From Antedon bifida (lineage: Eukaryota > Echinodermata > Crinoidea > Comatulida > Antedonidae), in NCBI GenBank assembly GCA_963402885.1, contig OY727102.1, positions 13,454,001-13,518,000 of the forward strand: a stretch of DNA of 64,000 nt, read 5' to 3'. A program made the position numbers and the translations under genes. Position 1 is the first letter of the stretch, and each line of letters starts with the position of its first letter. Below the pieces are notes generated by a model. That model did not search any database. It was given only the letters and a program-made list of their open reading frames with translations, and was not told where the DNA came from. Of this stretch, positions 7,660-55,099 are shown one piece after another.

Positions 7660-10600
7660 ATGGATAAAAAGATGATGAATTACTTGAAAGGATTAGCTGA
7701 ATCGTTCAAGCGGAGTTTCAACATGCGAGTTTTAGCAGACGATACCGAGATTAAAGAAGCTTACAAAACTGCTCAAGAAAAAGGAAAAGTACCATTTAAC
7801 AGAACCAAGCTTCTTATTATGGGTGATCATGGTGCCGGGAAAACGTCAACCTGCAGGCGTTTACAAGGAAAAGATTTTCGACCAGAAGAGCCTAGTACAA
7901 TCGAAATAGAAACAAACACTGTTTCCGTGAACGTTAGTGATGTTAATAGTAAATGGTGTGAAGTAACCAGCACCCCACTTGAAGATTATGAAAGTTCAGC
8001 AGCATGGTGGACAGTATCACATGTGCTCCAACAGAGCAAACGTAAAATATCGAGAGCCTTTGGTTCGTCTGACACAAATACATTATCAATCCGAAAGCTA
8101 CTGGAGGAGATTTGTTATCTAATGTTGTATCTGATCCCTTTTACTGTCATACTGTGTTTTGGTGGGTTTACATTCGGGTTTGGTCCAGTCGTGTGGTTAT
8201 ACATCGTTTGTATTATGACAATATGTGATGTCCACAGTGCATATCGCTTTGGATGTGGATGCACTATAGTGATGGTCCTTGTAGATAAAGCAACACAATT
8301 AAGTGAGCAGACTGAACAAAGTATGGAGTTAAATACATGGGTTTATGTGACAGCACCACTAATGATTGTTTGCTTGTATGGATTGGGATCGTTCATCGTC
8401 GGATTGCTCATGGGTACAGGTGGTAGGACGGGTATCTGTTTAGCATTGTGCTTCATGGTACATCCAAAACAATACATTATTTCTATGGAATTCTTTTTAG
8501 AAAAACTGTCATTTATTTGCAAACTATACATTGAATTCGTCATTTCTGCAGTAATTATAACAGTAATTTATAGAAGCATTCACACAAAAATATTTTCAAT
8601 CAGTCGAAGAAAGTTTACTATTGTGTTATTACTTAACATAATCATTATCATTGCAACGACATATTATTTCGGAAGAAACAATTTTGTTGACATATCTATT
8701 TTATTTTGCTTGCTTGCAATTGTATTTTCGTTAACATCCGGGGTTTTATTAGGAAGAAAGGTTATGGCTTACGGCTATGTGCCTGAAAATTACATTTTAA
8801 AGAAATCTTTTGGTTTTATGGCTGGGATATGTTTAGCAAAAATATGTGGCTGGGAATTTGGAAATAAAAACAATTTAAATAATTTAATCAATGGCCATAA
8901 TCATTCAAAATCACGGTATTGTTTGGACTTTTTATTTTTTGCGCCAATTGTTGCGTTTATTATCTATGAGTTATTAGCTTATGTCAAAGTAAAAACTACG
9001 TCATCAATACCAATACTGCATATCAGAAAATCAATGAAAGCAGATCTTCGAAATGAAACAAATATTGATGCCAGACTAAGTTTATGGGATTTTTCAGGAC
9101 AAGAAATGTACTATAATACACACCATCTGTTTATGCCAAAGCAAGGCGTATACTTGGTTGTTTTCAACGCTGTAGCGGCGATTTCTAATCCTGATAGATA
9201 CATTAAACAGCTACAATTCTGGTTACAATCTATTGCTATGCATGTTGATATTGAGAATGCTGTAGTGTTTCTTGTAGGAACAAGAAGAACCAGTGTTGTA
9301 CGTGATGAAAAAGCTTTTTCTACGTTTGATAAATTTGTAAATGCACATCTTTACAAAAGGTTTTCAAGATTACTTGCTTTTCATCCAAGTGGACGACTTT
9401 GCTTTTTTATTGAAAACGCATTTAAAATTGATAAGGAGCTTAACATCTTACGAGAAAGAATATATAGTGAAGTTTCGAAATTAAAATACTTTTGTGAAAA
9501 GTTTTCTTTAAAATACTTATTATTTAAAAACACGTTAAATGGATTTCGTCATAGACAGTCCGTTATTGTGAGTATAAAAGATATTGAAAATGAATTAAAG
9601 TTAGCAAGCACCATTTTTGTGAAATTTGAGGTACGTCAACTTTTGAAGTTTTTGGATAAATCTGGAGATATCATATACAATGAACTTGATGAACTACTTC
9701 AGAATTATGTGGTCTGTGATCCTCAGGTATTAATAGACATTCTGAAATTATTAGTGAATGTGCCTGAACCACACAAAAGAAACAGAGCTGTGTCTGATCT
9801 TTGGCAGAGATTACTGGAAACAGGAATTGTTGATAGTAGACTATTGGAACACATTTGCCGAATGAAAGGAATTTGGAGAGTTTATCCTTATGTGATTCAG
9901 TACTTGGTAGGAACACAGTTGATGTTTCCACTTACAATAACTAATCAAGTTGATCAAGTTGGAACATTCTGTCTTCCTTGCAAATTGCCCAAAATTGATG
10001 AAATTAATTATAGTGATCATACTTCTGACATATTTTATTTCGATTTTGGTGAAGTTTTGCTAGAATTTATATTTCTTCGACTTATTGCAAAATGTTGCCA
10101 AGTTTTTGATTGGACTAGAATATATTATAACTCTGCACATTTCAAAGCAAGTGAAACACTGTTTTTTCAAATAAACACTAAAACAGTTTCTTCTTGCAGT
10201 ATTTTCTTATACGATAGAAATCTCATCAAACTGTCAGTGTCTAAAGAAATCCCGAGTCAGTCAGTAAATATCTTACAGAAAATGCATACTTTCATTGAAG
10301 AAATAGTCTTACAGACATTTAATCCGGATTACTTTCGTGATCAGCTACTTTTTGGTCCAGTGTGTGAAAGATGTAGTTCATTGGATGGAACGATGTGTTT
10401 GGTTAATCTAGTTGACTTAAGTGACGATGTATCTGCATTGAATGAATACAGACCAGATGAACACCACAAAGTTTATCGTAAACCAGATGTAACTATTTTA
10501 CCTTGTGCATGCTTGTTTTTCTTCTATTAGGCCTACTATAATGTTTGCTTTTATAATTTCATTCCAAAGTCTCCATGAGAGGCCAGGTAGTCACATGGCC

Positions 10601-10740
10601 CTAGTAATTTGTAACGCGGCCATATTCCAGTGTATGTAAACAAAGATAAATCATTTGTAGATAATTTTAATTTTAAACGCTTTGTTTTTTTTCAGTTCCG
10701 TTTTACCTGCAGTAGACCGACAACGATCATCAAACAATAA
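7660..10740 (+). CDS. Gene A: Roc-COR-type GTPase interrupted by a multi-pass membrane domain
   Basis: Inferred join 7660-10488 plus 10696-10740, 957 residues. The reading frame is open from further upstream, but the ATG at 7660 is the one conserved as M-D/E-K in all paralogs, and an acceptor-like 'ttgcttatag' ends at 7636. P-loop GDHGAGKTS is at 55-63. Hydrophobic segments lie near 152-192, 202-212, 228-266, 287-307, 320-365, 380-395 and 424-445. G3 is at about 476-481 and reads WDFSGQ, where the other five read WDFAGQ. Then come VGTRR in place of the usual THxD, a COR-like region (about 610-770, with LLQNYVVCDPQ) and CERC near 900. Switch I reads TIEIE, where the others have TIGIE. The exon 1 donor is GAT|gtaact. 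Exon 2 follows a T-rich tract and cag and encodes FRFTCSRPTTIIKQ. Binding and hydrolysis of GTP at a membrane is inferred from the family. The biological role is unknown. Confidence 0.85.
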
Positions 10741-10789
10741 TACAGTGTATGTATGTATCTTCTGTATCCAGTCAGTTGTCTTCGCTCGC

Positions 10790-14045: not shown

Positions 14046-14898
14046 AGCTGCAACTGCAAAGGCTCAAAGGCAAGTACAGTATAGATGTACTAGTAGTCGA
14101 CCTAAGAGACCTCTTACAGACTGAAGATCTACGTATAATTAAGGTGGAAATATATGATGGTGATTTTGGCATGGGTTGTTTATACAATGTTTACTCAATA
14201 TTATAGAAAAAGTAACAAATGTAATAAGAAACAAAAAACACCGCTCGACTTTTTGGTTAACATTTTTAATCATTGTTCTTTCTTGAGATACAATGATTTA
14301 TTATATCAATTATTTTCAATCAGTAGCAAACATTCTGTGTAAATTTAGTCTGGCCTACTGTACAGAACAAAAATATAATCATAAACTAAACTACAGTATA
14401 TCATCATGGATTAAGCCATGAGTATAATTATGCACATATTCCCGGGTAGGAGCATTAACTTCCTAGGTTTAACGATGCAACATTAGAAGTTAATAGCATA
14501 CATTGTCTGTTAATATTTTGTATCAATATTAAAATAAAGAAAGAATTATGAAAATCTGACTAGTAGTTTTTTAAATATAGGGTTCAAAACATCGCCAAAA
14601 ATCGTTTTAGCCACAAACGAAGTAAATAAATTGCGCCCCAGTAGGCAATTGTATGAACTTAAACAATTACGGTTTTTATTAATATATTTTGTATATCAAC
14701 ATTTTAAAATTCAATCAAATATGATAATAGGGTTAGGGTTAGGCTATATTTACACAAAATGTTTACTACCGATGACTACTGACAGTCTGTAAGAGGTCTC
14801 TTAGGTCGACTACTAATAGTACTGTAAGAGGTCTCTTAGGTCGACTACTAATAGTACATCTGTACTTTACTTGTCTTTGAGCCTTTGCAGTTGCAGCT
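14046..14898. repeat. Inverted repeat pair flanking about 660 bp, upstream of pseudogene 1
   Basis: The left arm (14046-14123, 'gctgcaactgcaaaggctc' to 'cctcttacagactg') is the reverse complement of the right arm (14783-14898). The right arm also contains a tandem duplication of about 35 bp ('gtaagaggtctcttaggtcg' twice). The interior includes a stretch at 14150-14230 that matches 26640-26700 upstream of gene C. Confidence 0.7.
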
Positions 14899-14949
14899 CC
14901 TAAACTGTGAATTTCAATGCATTATTTTCCCGATTTGTGTTGGACATGC

Positions 14950-15612
14950 TAGTCGTTATGGAGATGGTTCGTTCCTTATTGGTGTGTTTATGAGTACAGG
15001 TGGAAGGACTGGTATCTGTATGGCATTGTACATCATGGTACATCCAAATCAGACTGATATTTCCATTGACAGTTTAAAAAAAAACATCTTTCTTTATAAT
15101 ATAATATTATATTGTTTTAAATTCCTATTTTCGGCAGTTACTATAATTGTAATTTTTAGGAGCAATAACAGACACATATTTTCATTAAGTCGAAGGAAGT
15201 TGATTATTCTGTTAATGATAAAAATATTGTGTATCATTACTTTTGGAAGTAATAATTTCGTCGAGATATGTATTTCATTTTGCTTTATAGCAATTATCTT
15301 TTCATAGCACGTGGGACTATATTAGGAAGAATGATTGTAGCGTATGGGTATGTCTCTGATAACTAAATTGTAAAGAAGACTATTGGGTGTATTGCTGGAA
15401 TATATATTGGCAAAATGTGTGGTTGGGAATTGTTCAATTTTACGATTTAACTATTTTAGAGAAAGAACATAACTTTTCTTTATCAAGACATCGTTTAAAG
15501 TTGTGTCATTGTGCACAATTTGCCGAATGAAGGGAATTTGGATAGTTTATCCTTATGTGATTTGGTAGTTGCAGGGTACACGGTTGATATTTCCACTTAC
15601 AATAACTAATCA
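14950..15612 (+). pseudogene. Pseudogene 1 of the membrane Roc-COR GTPase family
   Basis: Homology starts inside the membrane domain (GSFLIGVFMSTGGRTGIC, near 14960) and follows it to the LGR segment. There is a frame break near 15305, an in-frame stop in place of the paralogs' NY-I-LKK segment, and another frame loss near 15440. At about 15508 it jumps to the late COR sequence (ICRMKGIW...YPYVI). G3, G4 and most of COR are therefore deleted. The P-loop exon start is also absent. The first part is closest to gene C, and the part after 15300 is closest to gene E, so the parent was itself mosaic. Confidence 0.85.
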
Positions 15613-16087
15613 ATTAATTAATACATACACTGTACATAGAATCATATTTTATTTGGCAATTTTGTGATTTAGAAGCCAATAAGTACATTAGCCTGCAGTT
15701 TAAGTATGGTATGTACTTCCTGGATTGAAAGAGCGGATACTATTAGTTACACCCTGCTTGTTCACGGAATACCCAGAACGTAGATATTTCCGCTTGCTCA
15801 CCAGCTCATTATATAACCCTGGATGAATTATTTAGAATATCCATGTTATAACTAAGCATTGCTGCTATTGTCATTATGGTTTTATGTACGATCTACTACA
15901 TACTTATTTTATAGCTTTGGATAACAATAGATTCAACAATTGTCTGTCTATAAGATATTGTATATAAAAAGAGTACTATACCTTTAAAAGTGAACGATAA
16001 GGCAACAATGGTTAAAGCCTAGTTTCTAAAGATTATTTTTAAAGGCACTATTTTGAGCTTCGTTGTATACTTATTTACCATGCACCA
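15613..16087 (+). repeat. Pseudogene 3' flank, shared with pseudogene 2
   Basis: It matches 32061-32470, for example 'gcattgctgctattgtcatt' and 'ggttttatgtacgatctact'. The two pseudogenes share this flank and the same decayed COR tail, so they are copies of one already broken ancestor. Confidence 0.65.
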
Positions 16088-16830: not shown

Positions 16831-19800
16831 ATGGATAAAAACCATTTGAATTACTTGAGAGGATTTGCTGAGTCTTTCAAGCGAAGTTTTAACATGCGAG
16901 TTTTAGCAGACGATAATGAGATTAAAGAAGCTCATAAAACTGCTCAAGAAAGAGGAAAAATACCATTTAACAGAACCAAGGTTCTTATTCTTGGTGATCA
17001 TGGTGCCGGGAAAACGTCGACTTGTAGGCGTTTTCGAGACAAAGATTTTCGGCCAGAAGAGCCTAATACAATCGGAATAGAAACAAACACAGTACAGGCG
17101 AAAGTCAGTGATGTTAATAGTAAATGGTGTGAAGTAACAAACACTCCTTTAGAAGATTATGAAAGTTCAGCAGCATGGTGGACAGTATCACGTGTTCTTA
17201 AACAGAGCAAACATAAGCTACCAAAGGCACTTAATAAATATGATAATGATGTAAATGTGTCGATCCGAAAAATATTTGAGGACATAACTTACCTGCTGTT
17301 TCAGTTTATTCCTATGACTATAATTTTCTGGTTTGGTGGACTTTCTTTCGGGTTCGGACCAGTTGCATGGTTATACATTATTTATCTTTCAAGAATGTAT
17401 GATGTTCACAGTGCCTATCGCTTTGGTTGTGGGTACACAATATGTATGGTATTCATAGACAGTGCTACACAATTGAATGAACAATTTGCCCAGCAACCTA
17501 TCGTTGAGTTAAATATATGGCTTTATATGACTGTTGTTATGGTTGTTTGCTTGTATGGGTTGGGTTCGTTCCTTGTTGGTGTGCTTATGAGCGCAGGTGG
17601 TAGGACTGGTATTTGCTTAGCTTTTTGTCTCATGGTACATCCAAAACAGAATATTATTTCTATTGAAGTTTTTTTAGAAAAAATATCATTCATTTACAAT
17701 ATAATATACATTGAGTTTGTAATTGCTGCAGTTATTTTAATGGTTATTTTTAGAATTATGCATACCAAAATATTTTCACTTAGTCGAACAAAGTTGGTCT
17801 TTGCATTTATACTAAATATAATGCTTATAACAACAGCAATATATTTTGGAAGCCATAATTTTGTTGACATATTTACATTTTTTTGCTTTATTTCCTTGGT
17901 GTTTTTTATAATTTGTGGAGTTTTTATAGGAAGGAAATTTGTAGCGTATGACTATTTCCCTGAACACTACCTTTTTAAAAAGGCTATTGGGTTTATTGCT
18001 GGGATTTATATTGGCAGAATGTGTGGTTGGAAATTTGACAATTTTAACCATCTAACTAACGTAGAGAAAGACTATAACGTTTCAAAATATTTGCTTAAAG
18101 TTTTGTCATTTGTTGCACCAATTGTGTTTTTTATTATCTACGAGTGGCATTCTTACATGAAAGTAAAATCTACGTCATCAATACCAGTAGTGCATATCAG
18201 AAAATCAATGAAAGCAGATCTACGAAACGAATGTTACATTGACGCAAGATTAAGTTTATGGGATTTTGCAGGACAAGAAATGTACTATAATACACACCAT
18301 CTGTTTATGCCAAAGCAAGGCGTATACTTGGTTGTTTTCAATGCTGTAGCGGCGATTTCTAATCCTCATAGACATATTAAACGGCTACAATTCTGGTTAC
18401 AATCTATTGCTATGCATGTTGATATTGAGAATGTTGTAGTGTTTCTTGTAGGAACAAGAAGAGGAAGTGTACGTAATGCAAATGCGTTTTCCACCTTTGA
18501 GAGATTTGTAAATGCACATCTTTACAAAAGGTTTTCAAGATTGCTTGCTTTTCATCCAAGTGGACGACTTTGCTTTTTTATTGAAAACGCATTCAACGTT
18601 GATAAGGAGCTTAACATCTTACGAGAACGAATATATAATGAAGTAACAAAATTGAAATACTTTTGCGAAATGTTTTCTGTAAAGGACCTATTATTTAAAA
18701 ACACTTTAAATCAATTTCGACATAGACAGTGTATTATTGCGAGTGTAAACGATATTGAAAATGAATTAAGGTTAACAAGCAAAATCTTTGTGAAATATGA
18801 GGTGCGTCAACTTCTGAATTTCTTTGATAAATCTGGAGATATCATATACAATGAACTTGATGAACTACTTCAGAATTATGTTGTTTGTGATCCTCAGGTA
18901 TTAATAGACATTCTGAAATTATTAGTGAATGTACCTGAACCACACAAAAGAAACAGATTCGTGTCTGATCTTTGGCAGAGATTACTGGAAACAGGAATTG
19001 TAGACAGTAGACTTTTAGAACATATCTGCCGAATGAAAGGAATTTGGGGAATGTATCCATTTGTGATTCGGTACTTGGTTGGAACACATCTAATGTTTCC
19101 ACTTACAATAACTAATCAAGTTGATCAAGTTGGAACATTTTGTCTTCCTTGCAAATTGCCCAAAATTGAGTTACAACAACGTAAACTTGATGTTGATCAT
19201 ACTTCTGATATATTTTATTTCGATTTTGGTGAAATGTTACTGGAATTTGTATTTCTTCGACTTATTGCAAAATGCTGCAATGTGTTTGATTGGAATAACA
19301 TTTATTATAACTGTGCACGGTTCAGAGGAAGTGAAACATGTTTTTTTCAAATAAACACTGAAACAGTTTCTTCCGATAGTATTTTCTTATACAATAGACA
19401 TATCATCAAACTATCAGTGTCTAAAGAAATCCCGAGTCAGTCAGTAAATATCTTACAGAAAATGCACACTTTCATTGAAGAAATAATCTTACAGACGTTT
19501 AATCCGGATTACTTTCATGATCAGTATCTTTTTGGTCCAGTGTGTGAAAGATGTAGTTCATTTGATGGAATGATGTGTTTGGTGAATCTTGTTGGAATAA
19601 GCAAAGATGCTTCTGCATTGAATGAATACAGAGTGGATGAATACCACAAAGTTTATCGCAAACCAGATGTAACTATTTATCTTTTGCTTGTTTTTTTATA
19701 TTAGGCCTACTATAATGTTTGCTTTTTTATTTCACTCCAAAGTCTCCATGAGAGGCAAGATAGCCACATAGCCATAGTAATATGTTACGCGGCCATATTC

Positions 19801-19914
19801 CAATGTGTGTATACAAAGATAAATCATTTGTAAATTATTTTAATTTTAAACGCCTTGTTTTTTTTTCAGTTCCGTTTTACCTGCAGTAGACCGACAACGC
19901 TCATCAAACAATAA
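16831..19914 (+). CDS. Gene B: membrane-interrupted Roc-COR-type GTPase
   Basis: Inferred join 16831-19668 plus 19870-19914, 960 residues. P-loop is 55-63 (K61), switch I T80 in TIGIE, hydrophobic insert about 150-447, WDFAGQ 477-482 and VGTRR ending at 544. LLQNYVVCDPQ is near 680, FPLTITNQVDQVG near 756, and Cys residues 905, 908 and 916 form C-x2-C-x7-C. Exon 2 encodes FRFTCSRPTTLIKQ, almost identical to gene A. Through the P-loop, membrane insert and COR it is closest to gene D. The tail after about residue 880 (QKMHTFIEEI), the donor GAT|gtaact, the intron and exon 2 are closest to gene A, so the gene is a recombinant. Reading past the donor gives a hydrophobic tail that is intron sequence. 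Confidence 0.87.
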
Positions 19915-23780: not shown

Positions 23781-23799
23781 TGTTAAGGGCATCAGTTTT

Positions 23800-27327: not shown

Positions 27328-30300
27328 ATGGATGAAAAGGGGGTGGAACACTTGAAAGGATATGCTGAGTCGTATAAGCGAAGTTTTAACATGCGAGTTT
27401 TAGCAGACGATACTGAGATTAAAGAAGCTTACAAAACAGCTCAAGAAAAAGGAAAAGTACCTTTTAACAGAACTAAGGTACTTATTCTGGGTGATCATGG
27501 TGCTGGAAAAACCTCGACTTGCAGGCGTTTGCAGAGTAAAGAATTTCATCCAGAGGAGCCTAGTACAATCGGAATAGAAACACACACTGTTGAGGCGAAC
27601 GTTAGTGATGTTAATAGTAAATGGTGTGAAGTGACCAGCACTCCACTTGAAGATTATGAAAGTTCAGCAGCGTGGTGGACTGTATCACGTGTGCTCAAAC
27701 AGGGTAAAAATAAGGTAACAAATGCTCGTGGTTGGTCCGAAAATAATCCACATGTATTAATACGAAAATTACTGGAGGACACATGTTACATAATGTTGTA
27801 TATTGTTCCTTTCATGACTATACTTTGTTTTGGTGGATTTACATTCGGGTTTGGCCCAGTCGTGTGGTTGTACATTGTTTGTGTTATGGCAATATGTGAT
27901 GTCCACAGTGCATATCGATTTGGTTGTGGATTAGCTATATTTATGGTAATATTAGATAGCGCTACAAAATTAAATAAACATTTTTTAAACTTACAAAGCA
28001 TAGACTCAAATATATGGATGTATGTGTCTGCGGTGATAGTTGTTAGCATTTATGGAGTTGGTTCGTTCCTTATTGGTGTGTTTATGGGTACAGGCGGAAG
28101 GACTGGTATCTGCATAGCATTGTGCTTCATGGTACATCCAAATCAGACTGATATTTCCATTGACAGTTTTTTTAAAAAATTATCATTTCTTTATAATATA
28201 ATATATTATTTTAAATTCCTATTTTCGGCAGTTATTATAATTGTAATTTTTAGGAGCACTAACAGACACATATTTTCATTAAGTCGAAGGAAGTTGATTA
28301 TTCTGTTAATGATTAATATAATTTGTATTATTACAGCAATATACTTAGGAAGGAACAATTTTGTTGAAATATGTATTTTATTTTGCTTCATTGCAATTGT
28401 CTTTTCCATAATGTGTGGGGTTATATTAGGAAGAAAGATTGTAGCCTATGGCTATACACCTGAGAATTACATTTTAAAGAAATCAACAGGGTTTATTGCT
28501 GGAATATGTTTAGCAAATGTATGTGGTTGGAGATTTGAAAATGTGTTTAATTTAAGAGATGTTCATAGCCATTCCAATTCACAGTATATATTTGAATTGA
28601 TTTTATTTTTTGCCCCAATTACTGGGTTTTTTATCTACGAGTTATTATCTTATGTTAAAGTAAAAACTACGTCATCAATACCAATAGTACATATCAGAAA
28701 ATCAATTACAGCAGATCTACGAAACGAATGTTACATTGACGCAAGACTAAGTTTATGGGATTTTGCAGGACAAGAAATGTACTATAATACACACCATCTG
28801 TTTATGCCAAAGCAAGGCGTATACTTGGTTGTTTTCAATGCTGTAGAGGCGATTTCTAATCCTGATAGATACATTAAACGGCTACAATTCTGGTTACAAT
28901 CTATTGCTATGCATGTTGATATTGAGAATGTTGTAGTGTTTCTGGTAGGAACAAGAAGAGGAAGTGTACGTGATGGAAAAGCGTTTTCTACTTTTGATAA
29001 ATTTGTAAATGCACATCTTTACAAAAGTTTTTCGAGATTACTTGCTTTTCATCCAAGTGGACGACTTTGCTTTTTTATTGAAAACTCATTCAATGTTGAT
29101 ACGGAGCTTAACCTCTTACGACAAAATATATATAACGAAATTATAAAACTGAAATACTTTTGCGAAATGTTTTCTGTAAAATACCTATTGTTTAAAGAAA
29201 CTTTAAATGGATTTCGTCATAGAAATTTCATTATTGTGAGTATAAAAGATATTGAAGATGAATTAATGTTAACAGCAAGCACCATTTTTGTAAAATTTGA
29301 GGTGCGTCAACTTCTGAATTTCTTTGATAAATCTGGAGACATCATATACAATGAACTTGATGAACTACTTCAGAATTATGTTGTTTGTGATCCTCAGATA
29401 TTAATTGATATTCTGAAATTATTAGTGAATGTACCTGAACCACACAAAAGAAACAGAGCCTTATCTGATCTTTGGCAGCGATTACAAGAAACAGGGATTG
29501 TAGACAGTAGACTATTGGAACACATTTGCCGAATGAAAGGAATTTGGAGAGTTTATCCTTATGTGATTCGGTACTTGGTAGGAACACAGTTGATGTTTCC
29601 ACTTACAATAACTAATCAAGTTGATCAAGTTGGAACATTTTGTCTTCCTTGCAAATTGCCCAAAATTGATTTACAACAACGTGAATTTGATTATATTGAT
29701 TGTACTTCTGATATTTTTTATTTCGATTTTGGTGAAATGTTACTGGAGTTTGTATTTCTTCGACTTATTGCAAAATGCTGCCAAGTATTTGATTGGAATA
29801 ATATTTATTATAACTGTGCACGGTTCAGAGCAAGTGAAACCTGCTTTTTTCAAATAAACACTGACACAGTTTCTTCTGGCAGTATTTTCTTATATGATAG
29901 AAATCTCATCAAACTTTCAGTGTCTAAAGAAATTCCGAGTCAGTCAGTTAATATCCTACAGACAATTCTTACTTCGATTGAAGAAATAATCCAACAGACT
30001 TTTAATCCGGATTACTTTCATGATCAGTATATTTTTGGTCCAGTGTGTGAAAGATGTAGTTCTTTGGATGGAACGATGTGTTTGGTGAATCTTATTTTAT
30101 TAAGTAACGATGTATCTGCATTGAATGAATACAGAGTAGATGAATATCACAAAGTATATCGTAAACCAGAGGTAAATATATTTATTTTAATTTGTGAATA
30201 TTTGGCTTTGATTTTTGTTCTCTTTAGTGAGATGTAAAGCCGTAATTTTAAAGGACTGGTTAATGGAAGTTTGTTTTTGTTTGCTAAGTGAAAACAGACA

Positions 30301-31308
30301 TATTAGTAGCATTGCATATGTTTTACAGTAAACAGTTTACGTGAAAGGAAATATTTGGAAAAACATAGCAACGTTTTAATTTCAGCAACGTTTTCACTCG
30401 TCTTAACATAACATAACATAATTACAATGCACGATGCAGTTTCACTATTTTTATACTGTATGGTGAAACCAACATTTACGTACTTATTCCATAATACTTT
30501 AAAGTTAAATTGATGTACCGGTACTTGACGTTTAAATAAATTAATATGGTCTAGTAAAAGTATCAGAAATACAACACTACTGTTAGTGATAAACAAGAAA
30601 TATTTCTTACAAAAAACGCCGCTCGTTTCGATACATTATTTTCCCGTGTATTGAACATCCTCATAGACAACGTGACTTCACGGCATGTGAGAAAATTCTT
30701 CCGCAGTGTGTTGATTCGCGTCAACCAATCAAAGGACGAGAATCCAAAATCGTTCAACCGTGAGCCCTCGTCTCTCTTCCCAGACGTACTTTGGGTCGAA
30801 CAGCATGGACCTATACATTATTCGAGTTTACAAAATCCCTAAACTCGTAGTAAATAGCTTTCGCGATGATAATAGTTTCCTAATGATTCCGTTCTCTTGA
30901 TTATAATTGCTTAAAGGCGCGGCGCGAAAAAACATGGGGTGTATGTGTGTAACTACTTGAAGTGGAGTTGTGACTTGGTGGTTATGATGCTTGGCTACCA
31001 CTCCAAGGGTCCTGGGTTCAAGTCCGGTCACATGTCAGGATTTTTTCTAAGGACAAAATTACAACTCCACTCCCAAAGACTTGTAATAAGACTTTGTTGA
31101 TGTAGAGCATCTTGTGTATATGTTTGTCTTGTGAACCTGTAAGGGTCCCTAATGATCAGCAATTGCTGGATGGATCACCCTCAATAAATATGGTAAAAAA
31201 AAACTGTAAATATGTTTATTTAACCTAACTTAATTTTAAAATGTTTTAATTTTACAGTTTAGTTTTACATGCAGTAGACCGATAACCACTAGACAAGTTG
31301 CTATTTGA
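27328..31308 (+). CDS. Gene C: membrane-interrupted Roc-COR-type GTPase
   Basis: Inferred join 27328-30171 plus 31258-31308, 964 residues. GDHGAGKTS at 55-63, TIGIE, WDFAGQ starting at W477, VGTRRGSVRD, then LLQNYVVCDPQ and CERCSS. The donor is CCAGAG|gtaaat. The 1.09-kb intron contains a tRNA-derived SINE and ends in 'ttttaattttacag'. Exon 2 encodes FSFTCSRPITTRQVAI. The membrane insert is the closest match to the first part of pseudogene 1. The start of its intron ('cttaacataacataa', 'attacaatgcacgatg') matches gene D's intron, so C and D share a 3' ancestor. Translation through the donor gives an extra hydrophobic tail that is intron sequence. Confidence 0.87.
30966..31203 (+). mobile_element. 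tRNA-derived SINE in the last intron of gene C
   Basis: The 5' part folds like a tRNA: GTGAC at 30970 pairs with GTCAC near 31026-31030, a CTTGG/CCAAG stem sits in the middle, and a B-box GGTTCAAGTCC is at 31015-31025. An unrelated body of about 170 bp follows, ending 'tcaataaatatgg' and an A-run. This is the layout of a pol III SINE in the same direction as the gene. Confidence 0.75.
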
Positions 31309-31460
31309 GAAGTTGCCTACAATTAACTTTATTCAGATGGCTAGCTGGTACCAATCACTAAATGGCGATTGCATATACACATACGTATCTCCTACATGCG
31401 GCAAGTTGTATACAGATATTTGCTTAATGTTGTCTGCCATTTGTTGCATTCAATTTGCAG

Positions 31461-32060
31461 TGCAGTGTTTCTTTTAGGAACAAGAAGAGAAAGTGTACGT
31501 GATATAAATGCGTTTTCAATTTTTGATAAATTTGTAAATGTACATCTTTACAAAATGTTTTCAAGATTGCTTGCATTTCATTCAAATGGAAGACTTTGCT
31601 TTTTTTAAATTAAAAACTCATTCAACATTGATAAAGAACTTATCCTCCTACGACAAACATTTATAATGAAGCTACGAAATTGAAATACCTTTGTGACAAG
31701 TTTTCTTTAAAACACTTTAAATGGACATAGACAGTCCGTTATTGCGAGATTAAAGATATTGAAAATGAATTAAAGCAAGATCAACAAACAAAATCATTGT
31801 GAAATTTAAGGTGCGTCAGCTTTTGAAGTTCTTGGATAAATCTGGAGATATCATATGCAATGAACTTGATGATAATACTTCAGAATTATGTTGTTTGTGA
31901 TCCTCAGATTTTAATAGACATTCTGAAATTATTAGTGACTGTACCTCAGCCACACAAAATAAACAGAGCCGTGTCTGATATTTGGCAGAGATTACTGGAA
32001 ACTGATTTGGTAGTTGGTGGGTACACAGTTGATATTTCCACTTACAATAACTAATAAATT
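31461..32060 (+). pseudogene. Pseudogene 2 of the GTPase family (C-terminal half)
   Basis: Homology begins at G4 (FLLGTRRESVRD), runs through FSRLLAFHSNGRLCFF, then breaks on a stop at about 31606. It continues in shifting frames through LDKSGDIICNELDD, NYVVCDPQILIDILKLLV and FPLTITN. The stretch giving LLEHICRMKGIW in the live genes is deleted. P-loop, membrane insert and G3 are absent. It starts only about 150 bp after gene C's last exon. Confidence 0.85.
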
Positions 32061-33037
32061 ATTACATACACATATTTCATTTGGCAATTTTGTGATTGTT
32101 AAGATGCCAATAAGTACATTAGCCTGCAGTATATATATGGTATGTACTTGGATTGAACGAAACCGCAGATGTGTGCCCAGTTCAACGGATACAAAACATT
32201 CCACCAGCTCATTTATATAACCCTGGGAGAATTAGTCCATATCCATGGTATTACTAAGCATTGCTGCTATTGTCATTATGGTTTTATGTACGATCTACTT
32301 CATGCTTATTGTATAGCGTTGGATTTCAACAAAAATTGTCTGTGTATAAGATTCCCTTTTGTAATATTGTATACAAAAGAGTACTGTACCTTTAAAAGTG
32401 AATGATGAGGCAACAATGGTTAAAGCCTAGTTTCTGAAGATTATTTTTTAAACGCACTATTTTGAGCTTCGTTGTATAATTATTTATTGTTGTTACTTAA
32501 ATAAATATATAAATATATATTTAATACCAGTAAAAATATATATATAATCTTTATGTTAAACTTACTTCAGTAATTTAAAATTATTATTTAAAAAAAATAT
32601 ATTAGTTAGTCCAATAGTTTAAGGTTTCACATGTTATGTATTGGACCTTTGTCCTGTCTTCATGTTGTTTGTAATGTACTTAACTAATTGGTGGCCGGTA
32701 AACGAGCTTCTTCATACAAGCATTTGTACAGTATTTGAAATGATTTGAAACTGAAACTAAATTGAAACTAAAACTTATGCTTTTATTAGCTTTATTGAGA
32801 GAGAAGCAATTCTCATTGCGGAATACAATAAAATCAAAGCAGTGTAAAGGCTTTTCTTTGTTCTATTGACTTTAGGTATCTATTGACATTTGTGTGTGTA
32901 TATATAATGTATATAAATTATTTATATAATAGTATACTAAAGCGGAAATCAGAAGACTCTACACCTTCGTTTCCTATACTAGCTCTTTAAACTTAAAGAA
33001 GCAATCGATTTTGAATACTATATCACATGACTACCAG
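32061..33037 (+). other. Pseudogene 2 flank and plain intergenic DNA
   Basis: Bases 32061-32470 match 15613-16080 (flank of pseudogene 1). Bases 32471-33037 are AT-rich with short TATA runs. 'gctttattgagagagaagca' near 32790 is a fragment of module beta. No gene is seen. Confidence 0.5.
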
Positions 33038-36420: not shown

Positions 36421-39400
36421 ATGGAAAAAAACCATTTGAATTACTTGAGAGGATGTGCTGAGTCTTTCAAGCGAAGTTTTAACATGCGAGTTTTAGCAGA
36501 CGATACTGAGATTAAAGAAGCTTACAAAACTGCTCAAGAAAGAGGAAAAGTACCATTTAACAGAACCAAGGTTCTTATTCTGGGTGATCATGGTGCCGGG
36601 AAAACCTCAACTTGCAGGCGTTTTCGAGACAAAGATTTTCGGCCAGAAGAGCCTAGTACAATCGGAATAGAAACAAACACAGTTCAGGCGAAAGTCAGTG
36701 ATGTTAATAGTAAATGGTGTGAGGTAACAAACACTCCTTTAGAAGATTATGAAAGTTCAGCAGCATGGTGGACAGTATCACGTGTTCTTAAACAGAGCAA
36801 ACATAAGTTATCAAAGGCACGTAATAAATCTGATAATGATGTAAATGTGTCGATCCGAAAAATATTTGAAGACATAACTTACCTGCTGTTTCAGTTTATT
36901 CCTATGACTGTAATTTTCTGGTTTGGTGGACTTTCTTTTGGGTTCGGACCAGTTGCATGGTTATACATTATTTATCTTTCAAGAATTTGTGGTGTTCACA
37001 CTGTCTATCGCTTTGGTTGTGGGTACACAATATGTATGGTATTCATAGACAGTGCTACACAATTGAATGAACAATTTGCCCAGCAACCTATCGTTGAGTT
37101 AAATATATGGCTTTATATGACTGTTGTTATGGTTGTTTGCTTGTATGGGTTGGGTTCGTTCCTTGTTGGTGTGCTTATGAGCGCAGGTGGTAGGACTGGT
37201 ATTTGCTTAGCTTTTTGTCTCATGGTACATCCAAAACAGAATATTATTTCTACTGAAGTTTTTTTTGAAAAAATATCATTCATTTACAATATAATATACG
37301 TTGAGTTTGTAACTGCTGCAGTTATTTTAATAGTTATTTTTAGAAGTATGCATACCAAAATATTTTCACTTAGTCGAACAAAGCTGGTCTTTGTATTTAT
37401 ACTAAATATAATGCTTATAACAACAGCAATATATTTCGGAAGTCATAATTTTGTTGACATATTTACATTTTTTTGCTTTATTTCATTGGTGTTTTTTATA
37501 ATTTGTGGAGTTTTTATAGGAAGGAAATTTGTGGCGTATGACTATTTCCCTGAACACTACATTTTTAAAAAGGCTATTGGGTTTATTGCTGGGATTTATA
37601 TTGGCAGAATGTGTGGTTGGAAATTTGACAATTTTAACCATCTAACTAACATAGAGAAAGACTGTAACCTTTCAAAATATTTGCTTAAAGTTTTGTCATT
37701 TGCTGCACCGATTTTGGGTTTTATTATCTACGAGTGGCATTCTTACATGAAAGTAAAATCTACGTCATCAATACCAGTAGTGCATATCAGAAAATCAATG
37801 AAAGCAGACCTACGAAACGAATGCTACATTGACGCCAGGTTAAGTTTATGGGATTTTGCAGGACAAGAAATGTACTATAATACACACCATCTGTTTATGC
37901 CAAAGCAAGGCGTATACTTGGTTGTTTTCAACGCTGTAGCGGCGATTTCTAATCCTCATAGACACATTAAACGGCTACAATTCTGGTTACAATCTATTGC
38001 TATGCATGTTGATATTGAGAATGTTGTAGTGTTTCTTGTAGGAACAAGAAGAGGAAGTGTACGAGATGGAAATGCGTTTTCCACCTTTGAGAGATTTGTA
38101 AATGCACATCTTTACAAAAGGTTTTCAAAATTACTTGCTTTTCATCCAAGTGGGCGACTTTGCTTTTTTATTGAAAACGCATTCAACGTTGATAAGGAGC
38201 TTAACATCTTACGAGAAAGGATATATAATGAAGTAACAAAATTGAAATACTTTTGCGAAATGTTTTCTGTAAAATACCTATTATTTAAAAACACTTTAAA
38301 TGGATTTCGACATAGACAGTGTATTGTTGCGAGTGTAAACGATATTGTAAATGAATTAAAGTTAACAAGCAAAATCTTTGTGGAATATGAGGTGCGCGAA
38401 CTTCTGAATTTCTTTGATAAATCCGGAGACATTATATACAATGAACTTGATGAACTACTTCAGAATTATGTTGTTTGTGATCCTCAGGTATTAATAGACA
38501 TTCTGAAATTATTAGTGAATGTACCTGAACCACACAACAGAAACAGATTCGTGTCTGATCTTTGGCAGAGATTACTGGAAACAGGAATTGTAGACAGTAG
38601 ACTTTTAGAACATATTTGCCGAATTAAAGGAATTTGGAGAGTGTATCCTTATGTGATTCGGTATTTGGTAGGAACACAGTTGATGTTTCCACTTACAATA
38701 ACTAATCAAGTTGATCAAGTTGGAACATTTTGTCTTCCTTGCAAATTGCCCAAAATTGAGTTAAAACAACGTGAATTTGATTATATTGATCATACTTCTG
38801 ATATATTTTATTTCGATTTTGGTGAAATGTTACTGGAATTTGTATTTCTTCGACTTATTGCAAAATGCTGCAATGTGTTTGATTGGAATAATATTTATTA
38901 TAACTGTGCACGGTTCAGAGCAAGCGAAACATGTTTTTTTCAAATAAACACTGACACAGTTTCTTCTGGCAGTATTTTCTTATACGATAGAAATCTCATC
39001 AAACTTTCAGTTTCGAAAGAAATCCCGAGTCAGTCAGTAAATATCTTACAGAAAATTCTTACTTCGGTTGAAGAAATAATCAAACAGACGTTTAATCCGG
39101 ATTACTTTCGTGAAAATTATCTTTGTGGTCCAGTGTGTGAAAGATGTAGTTCATTGGATGGAACGATGTGTTTGGTGAACCTTGTTGGAATAAGCAAGGA
39201 TGCTTCTGCATTGAATGAATACAGAGTGGATGAATACCACAAAGTTTATCGGGAACGAGAGGTAATTGTATTTATTTGAATTCTGTGCATATTTGTTTTT
39301 CTTTCGTAAGTCGAATTGTTTAAGAACTAGTAGACCTACTGATGGGAGTTTTCACTCCACTTAACATAATTGCAATGTACGATGTAAGTTCAATACTTTT

Positions 39401-39580
39401 ATAGTGTATAACAATTACACAAAGATTACTGAGAATGTAATTCTACAAGCGGTCTTCCAAGAATATTTCGTCAAGTTTGCACAACAATCAATACTCTATT
39501 TTAACCTTAACTTAATTTGGTTTTAAAATGCTTTGATTTTGCAGTTCAGTTTCACATGCAGTAGACCGTTAACCACCTAG
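36421..39580 (+). CDS. Gene D: membrane-interrupted Roc-COR-type GTPase
   Basis: Inferred join 36421-39261 plus 39545-39580, 958 residues. It starts M-E-K where the others have M-D-K. GDHGAGKTS at 55-63, TIGIE, WDFAGQ from W477, VGTRRGSVRD and CERCSS are all intact. The N-terminal two thirds, including the membrane insert, are nearly identical to gene B. The tail (QKILTSVEEII) and the intron are closest to gene C. The donor is CGAGAG|gtaatt and the acceptor 'gctttgattttgcag'. Exon 2 is the shortest of the six, encoding FSFTCSRPLTT and then TAG. Within the insert, GVHTVYRFG replaces the DVHSAYRFG found in A, B, C and F. Confidence 0.87.
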
Positions 39581-44960: not shown

Positions 44961-47797
44961 ATGGATAAAAAAGGCCAGAATTACTTAACCGGATATACTA
45001 CATCTTTTAAGCGAAGTTTTAACTTGCGAGTTTTAGCAGATGATACAGAAGTTAAAGACACTTACAAAACAGCGGAAGAGAGAGGGAAAATACCCTTTAA
45101 TAGAACTAAGATTCTCCTTTTGGGTGACCATGGTGCCGGGAAAACTTCGACTTGCAGGCGTTTACATGGAAAGGATTTTCGAGCAGAAGAGCCTAGTACA
45201 ATCGGAATAGAAACAAACACTGTTGAGGCGAACGTTAGTGATGTTAATAATAAATGGTGTGAAGTGACTAGTACTCCACTAGAAGATTATGAAAGTTCAG
45301 CAGCGTGGTGGACTGTGTCGCGTGTACTCAAAAAGGGTAAACATGTATCGAAGAAGACAAGTGTGTTGTCTGATAAAAATAAACGAGTATCGATTCGAAA
45401 AGTACTGGAAGACATATGTTATTTAATGTTGTATATTATACCTTTCACTATTATACTATGTTTTGGTGGGCTTACATTCGGGTTCGGGCCAGTCGTGTGG
45501 ATATACATCATTTGTATTATGGGAATATGTGACTTTCACACGGCCTACCGCTTTGGTTGTGGAATAGCTGTATGGATGGTACTCGTAGATAGTGTTACAC
45601 AATTAAATGAAAATTTCGAAAATGTACAAAGCATGGACTTATGGATTTACACAACAGGTGTAATGGTTGTTTGCATGTATGGAGTTGGTTCGTTCCTTAT
45701 TGGTGTGCTTGTCAGTGTAGGTTGTAGGATTGGTATTTGTCTGGCATTGTGTTTCATGGTACATCCAATACAAACTTCAATCGAGGACTTTTTAGAAAAA
45801 CTCTCATTTATTGACAATCTAGTTTACCTTAAATTTGTTATTTCTGTCGGTATTATATCAGCAATATTTAAGAGAATTCACACTAATATATTTTCACTTA
45901 GTCGAAGGAAGTTGATTATTGTGTTCACGATAAACATACTTTGTATCATTGCAGCAATATATTATTTCGGAAGTAATAATTTCGTCGAGATATGTATTTC
46001 ATTTTGCTTTATAGTAATTACCTTTTTCATAGCATGTGGGACTATATTAGGAAGATTGATTGTAACGTATGGGTATGCCCCTGATAACTACATTTTAAAG
46101 AAGACTATTGGGTTTATTGCTGGAATATATATTGGCAAAATGTGTGGTTGGGAATTCTTCAATTTTAACCATCTAACTATTTTAGAAAAAGAACATAACT
46201 TTTCCTTATCAAGACATTTGCTTAAAGTTGTGTCATTTGTTGCACCAATTTTGTGTTTTATAATCTACGAATGGCATTCCTACATGAAAGTAAAAAATAC
46301 GTCATCCATACCAATAGTGCAAATCAGAAAATCGATTAAATCAGAAGTGCGTAACGAATGCTTGATTGACGCCAGACTAAGTTTATGGGATTTTGCAGGA
46401 CAAGAAATGTACTATAATACACACCATCTGTTTATGCCAAAGCAAGGCGTATACTTGGTTGTTTTCAATGCTGTAGCGGCGATTTCTAATCCCCATAGAC
46501 ACATTAAACGGCTACAATTCTGGTTACAATCTATTGCTATGCATGTTGATATTGCGAATGTTGTAGTCTTTCTGGTAGGAACACGAAGAGGAAGTGTACT
46601 AGATGAAAAAGCGTTTTCTACTTTTGATACCTTTGTAAATGCACATCTTCACAAAAGGTTTTCAAGATTGCTTGCTTTTCATCCAAATGGACGACTTTGC
46701 TTTTTTATTGAAAACTCATTCAACGTTGATAAAGAGCTTATCCTCCTGCGACAAACATTATATAATGAAACTTCGAAATTGAAATACTTTTGCGAAATGT
46801 TTTCTTTAAAATACCTATTATTTAAAGATACATTAAATGGATTTCGTCATAGACAGTGTGTTATTGTAAGTGTTAAAGATATTGAAAATGAATTAAAGTT
46901 GACAAGCAAAATCTTTGTGAACTTTGATGTGCGTCAGCTTTTGAATTTCTTTGATACATCTGGAGATATCATATACAATGAACTTGATGAACTACTTCAG
47001 AATTATGTTGTTTGTGATCCTCAGATGTTAATAGACATTCTGAAACTATTAGTGAATGTACCTGAACCACACAAAAGAAACAGAGCTGTGTCTGATCTTT
47101 GGCAGAGATTACTGGAAACAGGAATTGTAGACAGTAGACTATTAGAACATATTTGCCGAATGAAAGGAATTTGGAGAGTTTATCCTTATGTAATTCGGTA
47201 CTTGGTAGGAACACAGTTGATGTTTCCACTTACAATAACTAATCAAGTTGATCAAGTTGGAACATTTTGTCTTCCTTGCAAATTGCCCAAAATCGAGTTA
47301 CAACAATGTGAATTTAATTATAGCTATCATAACTCGGACATATTTTTTTTCGATTTTGGTGAATTTTTACTAGAATTTATATTTCTTCGACTTCTTGCAA
47401 AATTCTGCGAAGAGTTTGATTGGATTAAGATCTATTATGACTGTGCATATTTCAGATCAAGTGAAACATGTTTGTTTCAAATAAACACTGAAACAATTTC
47501 TTCTGGAAGTATTTTCTTATATGATAGAAATCTATTAAAACTGTCAGTGTCTAAAGTAATCCCTAGTGAATCAGTTAATATCTTACGGAAAATGCATACT
47601 TTCATTGAAGAAATAATCCTACAAACTTTTAATCCGGATTACTTTCATGATCAGTATCTGTTTGGTCCAGTATGTGAAAGATGTAGTTCTTTGGATGGAA
47701 CGATGTGTTTGGTGAATCTTCTTGCAATAAGTAATAAAATCTCCACATTGAATGAATACAAAGTAGACGAATATCACACAGTATATTGTAAATCAAA

Positions 47798-47834
<37 letters not shown>

Positions 47835-47990
47835 TTATATTGTTTTGCTTTAATATTTTCTCTGTTTTTAAGTGAGATGTAACACCTCTTTTGTTGTGTG
47901 TTATTTACTAATTTGATTTATAAATGTTTTTTTTTTCAGTTCAGTTTTACCTGCAGTAGACCAATCACCTTCACCCAGACAAGTGTTTGA
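44961..47990 (+). CDS. Gene E: membrane-interrupted Roc-COR-type GTPase
   Basis: Inferred join 44961-47798 plus 47940-47990, 962 residues. GDHGAGKTS at 55-63, TIGIE, WDFAGQ from W476, VGTRRGSVLD and CERCSS are present. The donor AAATCAAAG|gtaaat runs straight into a (TA)n tract at the intron start. The acceptor is a T-run plus cag, and the intron is only 141 bp. Exon 2 encodes FSFTCSRPITFTQTSV. It is the most diverged intact member. The insert reads VGCRIGIC where the others read GGRTGIC, and the segment before G3 reads IKSEVRNECLIDARLS. Its second half of the insert resembles pseudogene 1. A frame running past the donor reads IYIYIYI and is intron, not protein. Confidence 0.87.
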
Positions 47991-48016: not shown

Positions 48017-48050
48017 ACACAAACAGTTTATAATAGTGTTTAATTGTTAT

Positions 48051-51911: not shown

Positions 51912-52084
51912 TGGTATCTCTTGATAGTTTTTACTGTTAAATGTATGACATTTGTATTTGTATATATATAATATTGAGAATACAATTAATAAAAATGTGT
52001 TTACTCTTTAAAAGGAAAAGTATTGATAAAAATTATTTCTTTCTCTTTACAGAAAATAAATGTGAGAAGTCTAACTATAGATAA

Positions 52085-52102
52085 AATGCCAAAACCTATT
52101 TA
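52085..52102 (+). promoter_or_regulatory. Five-codon upstream ORF in the gene F leader
   Basis: ATG CCA AAA CCT ATT TAA, ending 10 bp before the gene F ATG and downstream of the acceptor-like 'tctttctctttacag' that ends at 52052. It could reduce initiation at the main start. Confidence 0.35.
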
Positions 52103-52112
52103 ACTGGATAAC

Positions 52113-55099
52113 ATGGATAAAAAGGCACTGAGTTACTTGAAAGGATATTCTGAATCGTACAAGAGAAGTTTTGACATGCGCGTTCTAGCAGACGATACTG
52201 AGGTCAAAGAAGTTTACAAAACCGCCCAAGAAAACGGAAAAGTACCATTTAACAGAACAAAGGTACTTATTCTGGGTGATCATGGTGCTGGAAAAACGTC
52301 AACTTGCAGGCGTTTACAAGGAAAGGATTTTCGTCCAGAAGAGCCTAGTACAATCGGAATAGAAACAAACACTGTTGAGGCGAACGTCAGTGATGTTAAT
52401 AGTAAATGGTGTGATGTGACAAACACTCCACTAGAAGACTATGAGAGTTCAGCAGCGTGGTGGACTGTATCGCGTGTACTTAAACAGGGTAAACATAAGT
52501 TGTCAAAAGGAAACTGTTCATCTACAAATAATTCACTGATGCGAAAAGTACTGGAGGACACATGTTACTTAATGTGGTATCTTATCCCTTTTACGGTTAT
52601 ACTATGTTTTGGTGGGTTTACATTTGGGTTCGGGCCAGTCGTGTGGTTATACATTATTTGTATTATGGGAATATGCGATGTCCATAGTGCCTATCGCTTT
52701 GGTTGTGGATATTCTATATGTATGGTCCTCTTAGATAAAGCTACACAATTAAAGGAACTGTTTGGAAGCATAGACAACATAGATTTAAATATCTGGATTT
52801 ACGTGACTACTGTTACAGTTGTCTGCATATTTGGATTGGGTTCGTTCATTGTCGGTGTTCTTATGAGTACAGGTGGTAGGACTGGTATATGTTTAGCATT
52901 GTGCATCATGGTACACCCAGATCAGACTCTAATTTCCATTGACAGTTTTTTAGAAAAACCATCGTTTCTTTACAATATAATATATTATCTTAAATTCCTC
53001 CTGTTTCCTGCAGTTTTTATAATTGTAATTTTTAGGAGCCTGAACACACAAATATTTTCAATTAGTCGAAAGAAGTCAATTATTGTATTAATAGTTAACA
53101 TAATTTGCATTGTTGCAGCAATATACGTCGGAAGGAGCAATTGTATTGACATATGCATTTTATTTTGCTTTATTGCAACAATATTTTTAATGTTGTATGG
53201 GGTTATTTTAGGAAGGAAGGTTAAAGCGTATGGGTATGCACCTGGAAATTACTTTTTAAAGAAAGCTATTGGCTTTATTGCTGGAATATGTTTAGCGAGA
53301 ATGTGTGGTTGGGAATTTAGACATGTGAACAATTTCATTAATGTAAGGGATGACCATATCGATTCCAAATCACAATATTTCTTTAATTTATTTTCATTTT
53401 TTGCCCCTATTACTGGTTTTATCATCTACGAATGGCATTCTTATATGAAAGTAAAAACTACGTCATCGATACCAATAGTGCATATCAGAAAATCAATGGA
53501 AGCAGATCTACGAAACGAATGTTACATTGACGCCAGACTAAGTTTATGGGATTTTGCAGGACAAGAAATGTACTATAATACACACCATCTGTTTATGCCA
53601 AAGCAAGGCGTATACTTGGTTGTTTTCAACGCTGTAGAAGCGATTTCTAATCCTGATAGACACATTAAACGGCTACAATTCTGGTTACAATCTATTGCTA
53701 TGCATGTTGATATTGAGAATGTTGTAGTGTTTCTTGTAGGAACAAGAAGAGGAAGTGTACGTGATGCAAATACGTTTTCTACTTTTGATAAATTGGTAAA
53801 TGCACATCTTTACAAAAGGTTTTCAAGATTGCTTGCTTTTCATCCAAGTGGACGACTTTGCTTTTTTATTGAAAACGCATTGAAAGTTGATGAGAAGCTC
53901 AACAACTTACGAGAAAGTATATATAGTGAAGTAACCAAATTAAAATATTTTTGGGAAAAGTTTTATGTAAAATTCTTGTTATTTAAACAAACGTTAGATG
54001 GATTTCGTCACAAACAGTGTATTATTGTGAGTATTAAAGATATTAAAAGTGAATTAATGTTGACAACCAATACTTTTGTGCAATATGAGGTGCGTCAACT
54101 TCTGAAATTCTTTGATAAATCTGGAGATATTATATACAATGAACTTGATGAACTACTTCAGAATTATGTTGTTTGTGATCCTCGGATGTTAATAGACATC
54201 CTGAAACTATTAGTGAATGTACCTGAACCACACAAAAGAAACAGAGCTGTGTCTGATCTTTGGCAGAGATTACTGGAAACAGGAATTGTAGACAGTATAC
54301 TATTAGAACATATTTGCCGAATGAAAGGAATTTGGAGAGTGTATCCTTATGTAATTCGGTATTTGGTAGGAACACAGTTGATGTTTCCACTTACAATAAC
54401 TAATCAAGTTGATCAAGTTGGAACATTTTGTCTTCCTTGCAAATTGCCAACAATTGATTCACAACAATTTAAATTTAATTCTAGCGATCACACTTCTGAC
54501 ATATTTTATTTCGACTTTGGTGAAGTTTTAATAGAATTTGTATTTCTTCGACTTCTTGCGAAATGCTGCCAAGTATTTGATTGGATTAGGATATATTATA
54601 ACTGTGCATGGTTCAGAGCAAGTAACACATGTTTTTTTCAAATAAACTCTGAAAAAATTTCTTCTGGCAATATTTTCTTGTATGATAGAAATCTTATCAA
54701 GCTTTCAGTGTCTAAAGAAATCCCGAGTCAATCATTTACTATCTTACGAAAGATTAATATCTTCATTGAAGAAATAATCCAACAAACTTTTAATCCGGAA
54801 TACTTTCGTGACCAGTATCTTTTTGGTCCAGTATGTGAAAGATGTAGTTCATTGGATGGAACGATGTGTTTGGTGAATCTTATTTCATTAAGTAACGATG
54901 TCTTTGCATTAAATGAATACAGAGTGGATGAATATCACAAAGTGTATCGTACATCAAAGGTAATTTTCTTATATAATACATAATAATGCATAGAACAATA
55001 ACTTCGTTTTATTAATGTAATTAAATATTTTTTTTTTTTTTGCAGTTCAGTTTTACCTGCAGTAGACCAATGACCTTCACAAACACAAGTATTTCATAA
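52113..55099 (+). CDS. Gene F: membrane-interrupted Roc-COR-type GTPase
   Basis: Inferred join 52113-54959 plus 55046-55099, 966 residues, the longest of the six. GDHGAGKTS at 55-63, TIGIE, WDFAGQ from W479, VGTRRGSVRD, LLQNYVVCDPR and CERCSS are present. The donor is ACATCAAAG|gtaatt. The intron is 86 bp and ends in a long T-run plus 'gcag'. Exon 2 encodes FSFTCSRPMTFTNTSIS. Sequence details set it apart in COR (SILLEHICRM for SRLLEHICRM). It is the last intact member: the beta module after it is not followed by another copy within the window. Confidence 0.87.

Follow-up and report, generated by a model that had tools for sequence, protein, structure and literature searches.

Tandem crinoid genes encode putative membrane-embedded Roco proteins with a G domain interrupted after switch I

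We analysed a 64,000-nucleotide stretch of the genome of the crinoid Antedon bifida (contig OY727102.1, positions 13,454,001 to 13,518,000 of the forward strand; hereafter the window), which carries six intact genes for proteins of about 960 residues. The Roc G domain of these proteins is split after switch I by a hydrophobic module. A preliminary description, made from the sequence of the window alone, had reported this split; our analysis confirms the observation, and we consider the architecture very probable. Within the Roco family they represent a new architecture. The best explanation of the evidence as a whole, to which we give a probability of about 0.6, is that they are membrane-embedded Roco proteins, here called TM-Rocos (TM, transmembrane).

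The nucleotide-site motifs were found in all six window proteins where the preliminary description had placed them: in gene 3 numbering, the P-loop GDHGAGKTS at residues 55-63, switch I, P(S/N)TI(G/E)IET, at 78-85, and G3, LWDF(A/S)GQ, at 476-482. The distance from the P-loop lysine to the G3 aspartate is 416, 417, 417, 417, 416 and 419 residues in genes 1-6, against 42-50 residues in ordinary Rocos, so the gap is indeed far beyond that of an ordinary Roc. The Roc profile search that had been proposed (Pfam PF08477) matched 6/6 proteins, each in two stretches, with 66-74 bits against a cut-off of 27. In each of the six paralogs, the insert and both Roc halves lie in one uninterrupted exon. The features of gene 3, which was used for the structure model, are as follows.

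27328..30171, + strand: gene 3 exon 1, 948 codons
27487..27582, + strand: gene 3 Roc N-half core, residues 54-85 (P-loop 55-63, switch I 78-85)
27748..28668, + strand: gene 3 predicted membrane insert, residues 141-447
28753..29163, + strand: gene 3 Roc C-half, residues 476-612 (G3 478-482, degenerate G4 541-545)
29164..30147, + strand: gene 3 predicted COR-A and COR-B, residues 613-940
31258..31308, + strand: gene 3 exon 2, FSFTCSRPITTRQVAI-stop, the same as the tail of Antedon mediterranea protein P0001

The exon structure bears on whether the architecture could be an artefact, either through transposition of a membrane-protein gene into a Roco gene or through the reading of an intron as coding sequence. 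Beyond the oddity of the architecture itself we found nothing in favor of this explanation, and we regard it as extremely improbable: the same uninterrupted exon occurs in six paralogs, A. mediterranea has orthologs, and the insertion point is shared by the relatives found in Anneissia, Patiria and Ptychodera. Substitution rates also oppose it. The ratio of nonsynonymous to synonymous substitution (dN/dS, calculated as mean dN over mean dS for 15 paralog pairs) is 0.33-0.34 for the insert (single pairs 0.23-0.68), compared with 0.31 for COR, 0.32 for G3-G5 and a lower value, 0.21, for the N-half. These ratios indicate that the insert is under purifying selection.

In the AlphaFold2 models of the gene 3 and Ptychodera proteins, the two halves together make up a single Ras-like domain, COR comes next, and the insert has some ten helices. 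Superposed jointly, the two halves cover 162/165 residues of Rab21 and 155/163 of Rab6B. The packing of the halves on one another, which had been suggested as a check, was thus seen with medium confidence in two models from different phyla, and the models support the view that the halves fold as one Roc domain. They also superpose on LRRK1, LRRK2, M. barkeri Roco2 and C. tepidum RocCOR, and by this structure comparison a predicted COR region follows directly after Roc. Pfam COR scored above its cut-off in 3/3 starfish proteins scanned.

We counted hydrophobic segments as non-overlapping windows of 19 residues reaching a Kyte-Doolittle value of 1.3. The six window proteins have 6-8 such segments between the Roc halves, and the gene 3 model has ten long helices there (141-166, 175-187, 192-213, 228-255, 258-267, 289-315, 320-340, 342-373, 381-398 and 417-447), in agreement with the membrane domain claimed earlier. 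Ten long insert helices were also counted, manually, in the Ptychodera model. The parity check proposed in the preliminary description therefore gave an even number in both models, by a manual count in which short helices were left uncounted; an even number places both ends of the insert on one side. Lysine plus arginine density is higher in inner than in outer loops in 7/7 groups (0.141 versus 0.078 per residue in the window proteins); since helix borders were set by hand from model and hydropathy, this pattern is a matter of consistency, not proof. The flanks of the insert are basic, with means of 8.0 Lys+Arg and 4.2 Asp+Glu at 108-149 and of 5.7 and 2.2 at 442-470 (window proteins). From these features we infer that the predicted bundle is inserted in the membrane with both Roc halves in the cytosol.

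Our searches returned 56 proteins, of which P0008, P0015, P0025, P0026, P0053 and P0054 have no P-loop or no G3 by the patterns used. The remaining 50, together with the six window proteins, form three classes of Lys-Asp gap: (i) 42-50 residues (n=7); (ii) 147-175 residues, with no hydrophobic segment (n=7); and (iii) 384-429 residues, with 5-10 hydrophobic segments (n=42). The insertion point is the same in Antedon mediterranea, Anneissia (crinoid), Patiria (starfish), Ptychodera (hemichordate) and six ENA entries. Comparison of insert profiles gave E values of 4.4e-13 (crinoid-Patiria), 4.9e-18 (crinoid-Ptychodera) and 2.4e-12 (Patiria-Ptychodera), which argue strongly for homology of the insert among crinoids, starfish and hemichordates; the highest of 20 reversed controls reached 21.2 bits. 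Homology appears marginal for the inserts of two ENA proteins (group ENA_B; P0036 and P0037), which scored 32.6 bits against crinoid, 32.4 against Ptychodera and 22.3 against Patiria. For the four others (group ENA_A; P0032-P0035) the scores against the four other groups were 16.0-27.0 bits, within or just over the controls, so that the insert alone does not show homology. Other support for ENA_A comes from the common position and length, from the Roc-COR tree, and from alignment of W180, G250, R258, G364 and G368, with the caveat that an aligner can line up chance matches.

Two trees were built from Roc-COR without the insert; both are unrooted, with few outgroup rows and with warnings of long branches. 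Each recovers the TM rows as a single clade (100/99; tree 1 with 15 of them, tree 2 with 10). Tree 1 left out P0043-P0049 (7/29 rows); tree 2 took in all seven, with 10 TM rows. In tree 2, a 100/99 branch parts the Rocos with a lengthened gap from seven short-gap ones, the former side holding the TM rows, P0038, P0039, P0041, P0043, P0047, P0055 and P0056. The gaps of P0043 (166 residues) and P0047 (162 residues) are of the lengthened and not the ordinary kind. Because the Rocos with lengthened gaps are all on one side of this branch, the tree suggests that the loop between switch I and G3 lengthened first and that the bundle was taken in later, once.

The seven Rocos without a bundle on that side of the branch (two of them, P0055 and P0056, from Mytilus) have their extra sequence at the very place of the insert. 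They share with the window proteins the site and the side of the branch, and differ in having 147-175 residues from Lys to Asp and no membrane segment. The switch I-G3 site is a possible insertion hotspot.

The domains beyond Roc-COR vary among the relatives. Ptychodera P0052 carries a Death domain that scores 36.7 bits, over a cut-off of 22.6, and Death was found in 3/3 Patiria C-termini scanned alone (P0030, 26.5 bits; P0031, 31.2; P0050, 24.7). With whole proteins scanned at E 0.1, Death was not among the matches listed for P0030, P0050 or P0051, the last of which was not among the C-termini scanned alone. The Death regions of P0052 and P0031 are 41% identical, and among solved structures the Death domains closest to the P0052 one include those of p75NTR, NRADD and MyD88 (E 2.8e-4 and up). 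Pfam gave no match to LRR, ankyrin or kinase domains in the six window proteins; fewer than 50 residues precede the P-loop strand, so there is no kinase before Roc.

The paralogs of the window differ mostly in the bundle. Insert identity is 53-68% in 14/15 pairs (genes 2 and 4 are 93% identical), and G3-G5 identity in the same 14 pairs is 82-90%. Among the paralogs, the insert has a mean dS of 0.70, versus 0.19 for G3-G5 and 0.28 for COR. The simplest reading of these values is that gene conversion homogenises the 3' half, which holds the switch, and that the bundle is free to diverge. The closest named proteins are those of Antedon mediterranea (gene 1 and P0003, 88.6% identity; gene 3 and P0001, 92.0%; gene 5 and P0004, 93.6%). 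In three ortholog pairs, identity is 85-93% in the insert, 91-95% in G3-G5 and 90-96% in COR.

The insert itself has near-invariant positions in the joint alignment: W180, G250 and R258 (each 40/40 rows having a residue there), G364 (42/42) and G368 (41/42). These residues, and the fact that about ten helices is a common transporter size, would fit a nucleotide-gated channel or transporter, in which the bundle conducts or transports, Roc-COR gates it, and the output is at the membrane. Sequence searches of the insert speak the other way, and we judge this alternative unlikely. Membership of a known Pfam family was rejected, as two families matched 1/9 insert sequences each with a best E of 0.051, and PDB sequences gave 0 matches at E up to 10. 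Among 7997 scored candidates listed, the only stand-alone homologue of the insert was the Antedon fragment P0053. Searches with whole models (Foldseek and VIA-align) gave no membrane protein with a credible score among the matches listed, and a viral library gave 0 matches to the Ptychodera model at E 0.001.

A number of findings weigh against membrane-embedded Rocos as the explanation. Model confidence is medium (for gene 3 and Ptychodera, mean predicted local distance difference test, pLDDT, 69.3 and 69.4; predicted template modelling score, pTM, 0.59 and 0.54), with gene 3 pLDDT below 50 both in the switch I region (80-107) and near G3 (468-481), and AlphaFold2 tends to complete a Ras fold. 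The same values would fit a reading in which the halves do not make one site and are independent fragments beside a membrane protein, the second being a non-binding Ras-like remnant. That P0008, P0015, P0025, P0026 and P0053 of Antedon and Anneissia have no P-loop or no G3, with one-half forms annotated, points the same way. We nevertheless find this reading very unlikely given the joint fit on both Rab structures and the keeping together of both halves in crinoid, starfish, hemichordate and ENA rows. In the bundle, helix 5 was counted although it has 10 residues (9 in Ptychodera), short helices at 215-222 and 278-284 (gene 3) and 281-289 (Ptychodera) were not counted, and hydropathy alone does not reach ten in the window proteins. 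Helix parity thus rests on a manual count, and the number of helices in the models may be odd. Absolute Lys+Arg numbers inside and outside are about equal (window 5.5/5.2, Anneissia 5.4/5.4, Patiria 4.5/4.5) despite the difference in density, because the outer loops are longer. Glycosylation sequons were rejected as a topology test, as they are present on both assigned sides. COR-A is under the Pfam cut-off in 6/6 window proteins. Death had no Pfam match in the six window proteins or in Anneissia P0007; a Death output is therefore not general. Lastly, G4 reads GTRRG in five window proteins and GTRRT in one, the guanine-reading aspartate being gone in all six, as it is in 7/9 Antedon rows (Glu in 4, Gly in 3) and 4/4 Patiria rows, and the G3 glutamine is replaced by aspartate in Patiria 4/4. 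The order G3-G4-COR given in the preliminary description therefore stands for G3 and, by structure and the starfish profile matches, for COR, the window proteins falling short by Pfam COR-A; it does not stand for G4.

The loss of the G4 aspartate favors a plain anchor or scaffold, in which the bundle only tethers the Roco and the crinoid protein is a pseudo-GTPase dimer platform with nucleotide binding lost. So does the concentration of paralog differences in the bundle. On the other side, the P-loop and the G3 glutamine are intact in 6/6 window proteins, and for a simple anchor one or two helices would presumably be enough, with little need for conserved positions; we consider an anchor unlikely. 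The P-loop is also intact in most other rows listed (Antedon 8/9, with one gap row; Anneissia 14/16; Patiria 4; Ptychodera 1; ENA 6), and the G4 aspartate is kept in Ptychodera 1/1, ENA 6/6 and at least 4/16 Anneissia rows. We treated this aspartate as needed for the word GTPase and as non-defining for the Roco family. The ancestor of the family was probably a GTP binder, and in the crinoid cluster the nucleotide preference may have changed or the switch may have been lost.

If the proteins are membrane-embedded Rocos, the chain would begin in the cytosol with beta1, the P-loop, alpha1 and switch I of a Ras-like Roc, would then enter the membrane, cross it about ten times and return to the cytosol, and would there complete Roc (G3 to alpha5) and continue into COR-A/COR-B. 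The stretch between switch I and G3 is the part of G proteins that moves with nucleotide state. With the bundle attached at this stretch, a membrane event would therefore act on switch I as well as on the COR dimer, or the reverse. Possible triggers at the membrane would be (i) a ligand, (ii) a lipid, (iii) an ion, (iv) tension, or (v) dimerisation of the bundle; in the reverse option, nucleotide state would alter the bundle. We take the direction from sensor to switch to be more likely than that from switch to bundle. Outputs would be COR dimerisation and, in starfish and hemichordate members, the C-terminal Death domain. We offer this route from sensor to Death signalling tentatively, at somewhat less than even odds. 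Equally short of even is our confidence in a broader proposal: that these are polytopic signalling proteins of a class not described before, whose membrane bundle is an insertion of the G domain, so that switch I is mechanically connected with some ten helices resembling a receptor or channel. Such a class would have a single origin from long-loop Rocos. Its starfish and hemichordate members would have the order Roc(N)-10TM-Roc(C)-COR-Death, and crinoids would have multiplied it in tandem arrays with diverged bundles and conserved switches, as for a receptor repertoire.

Were this true, a membrane receptor or channel would have its own GTP switch as part of the same molecule, with no go-between. 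Roc-COR is the regulatory core of LRRK2, a Parkinson's-disease protein, and its response to membrane events could then be studied directly. The proteins would also be a candidate class of death or immune signalling receptors; a search of the open-licence literature for an immune role found no paper on them. Such a class would be hidden from ordinary domain scans, because Pfam shows two separate Roc stretches and no bundle.

Known systems resemble the window proteins in part. Roco proteins (LRRK1/2, DAPK1, MFHAS1, and bacterial and archaeal Roco) are alike in having Roc and then COR, but their G domain is unbroken, whereas the window proteins have a membrane module of predicted ten or so helices in it. 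In heterotrimeric G-alpha, a domain is inserted in the Ras-like fold near switch I; that inserted domain is soluble and helical and precedes switch I, in contrast to the membrane module after switch I in the window proteins. Mitofusins are GTPases with membrane helices, which lie outside the G domain. KAP NTPases, which include Kidins220/ARMS and PifA, have fewer helices than the window insert and no Ras-like Roc with COR. According to the title of Aravind et al. 2004, KAP NTPases have membrane segments inside the P-loop NTPase domain, and in their predicted architecture the window proteins would be like them. We regard them as the nearest, apparently convergent, precedent. Tmn, according to one source (PMC11846954), belongs to the KAP NTPases and carries two transmembrane domains of an unusual kind. 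No KAP match was found in the six window proteins (Pfam, E up to 10, where HMMER filters drop most weak matches). We found no Roco with a membrane domain inside Roc in the open-licence literature, a scope outside which most subscription journals lie. The preliminary description knew of no described Roco with this architecture; this holds within that literature, with the KAP NTPases as a precedent among P-loop proteins more widely. The DAPK group of Rocos is defined by a Death domain at the end, as the available text of PMC6337361 has it; the starfish and hemichordate members share this C-terminal Death, and the window proteins have neither a Pfam match to Death nor a kinase before Roc. Brown-algal Rocos are reported to have non-conserved sequence inside Roc in at least one protein, the kind of insertion not being stated in the available text (PMC11378527), and C-terminal domains resembling transmembrane proteins, according to another source (PMC4104024). 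They are like the window proteins in an insertion within Roc, known by description alone.

The six genes are all on the + strand, with neighbouring starts 7.2-10.5 kb apart; their open frames have 952-973 codons and start at 7660, 16831, 27328, 36421, 44961 and 52113. Each gene has an exon 1 of 943-949 codons and a short coding exon 2 for F(S/R)FTCSRP and a few more residues, separated by a GT..AG intron of 86-1086 bases; the final residues of the open frames are therefore intron read-through. The six intact genes reported earlier were recovered, and their single-frame C-terminal ends were replaced by the exon 2 found in each. For gene 3, the resulting tail is identical to the annotated tail of P0001. 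The gene 1 row in several computations was four codons too long (to 10500). The other genes and two decayed copies are as follows.

7660..10488, + strand: gene 1 exon 1, 943 codons; Roc N-half, predicted membrane insert, Roc C-half, COR; donor GAT|GTAACT
10696..10740, + strand: gene 1 exon 2, FRFTCSRPTTIIKQ-stop
14858..15616, + strand: decayed copy, bits of insert (~202-423) and COR (~729-766), frames shifting
16831..19668, + strand: gene 2 exon 1
19870..19914, + strand: gene 2 exon 2
31459..32061, + strand: decayed copy, bits of Roc C-half and COR (~534-766), frames shifting
36421..39261, + strand: gene 4 exon 1
39545..39580, + strand: gene 4 exon 2
44961..47798, + strand: gene 5 exon 1
47940..47990, + strand: gene 5 exon 2
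52113..54959, + strand: gene 6 exon 1
55046..55099, + strand: gene 6 exon 2

The window also contains repeats. Satellite-like arrays lie at 1588-4008 and 21768-22546, with units of 186/164 and 191 bases, and an 18-base unit, CTTCTAATAGTAACCCCC, occurs in two separate arrays (33928-34077 and 35782-35949). An array of about 1 kb at 49727-50685 holds 41 copies of the 23-base unit TCCCCCTTCCCAAAGTGTAGTTT, and several minus-strand frames are open across it.

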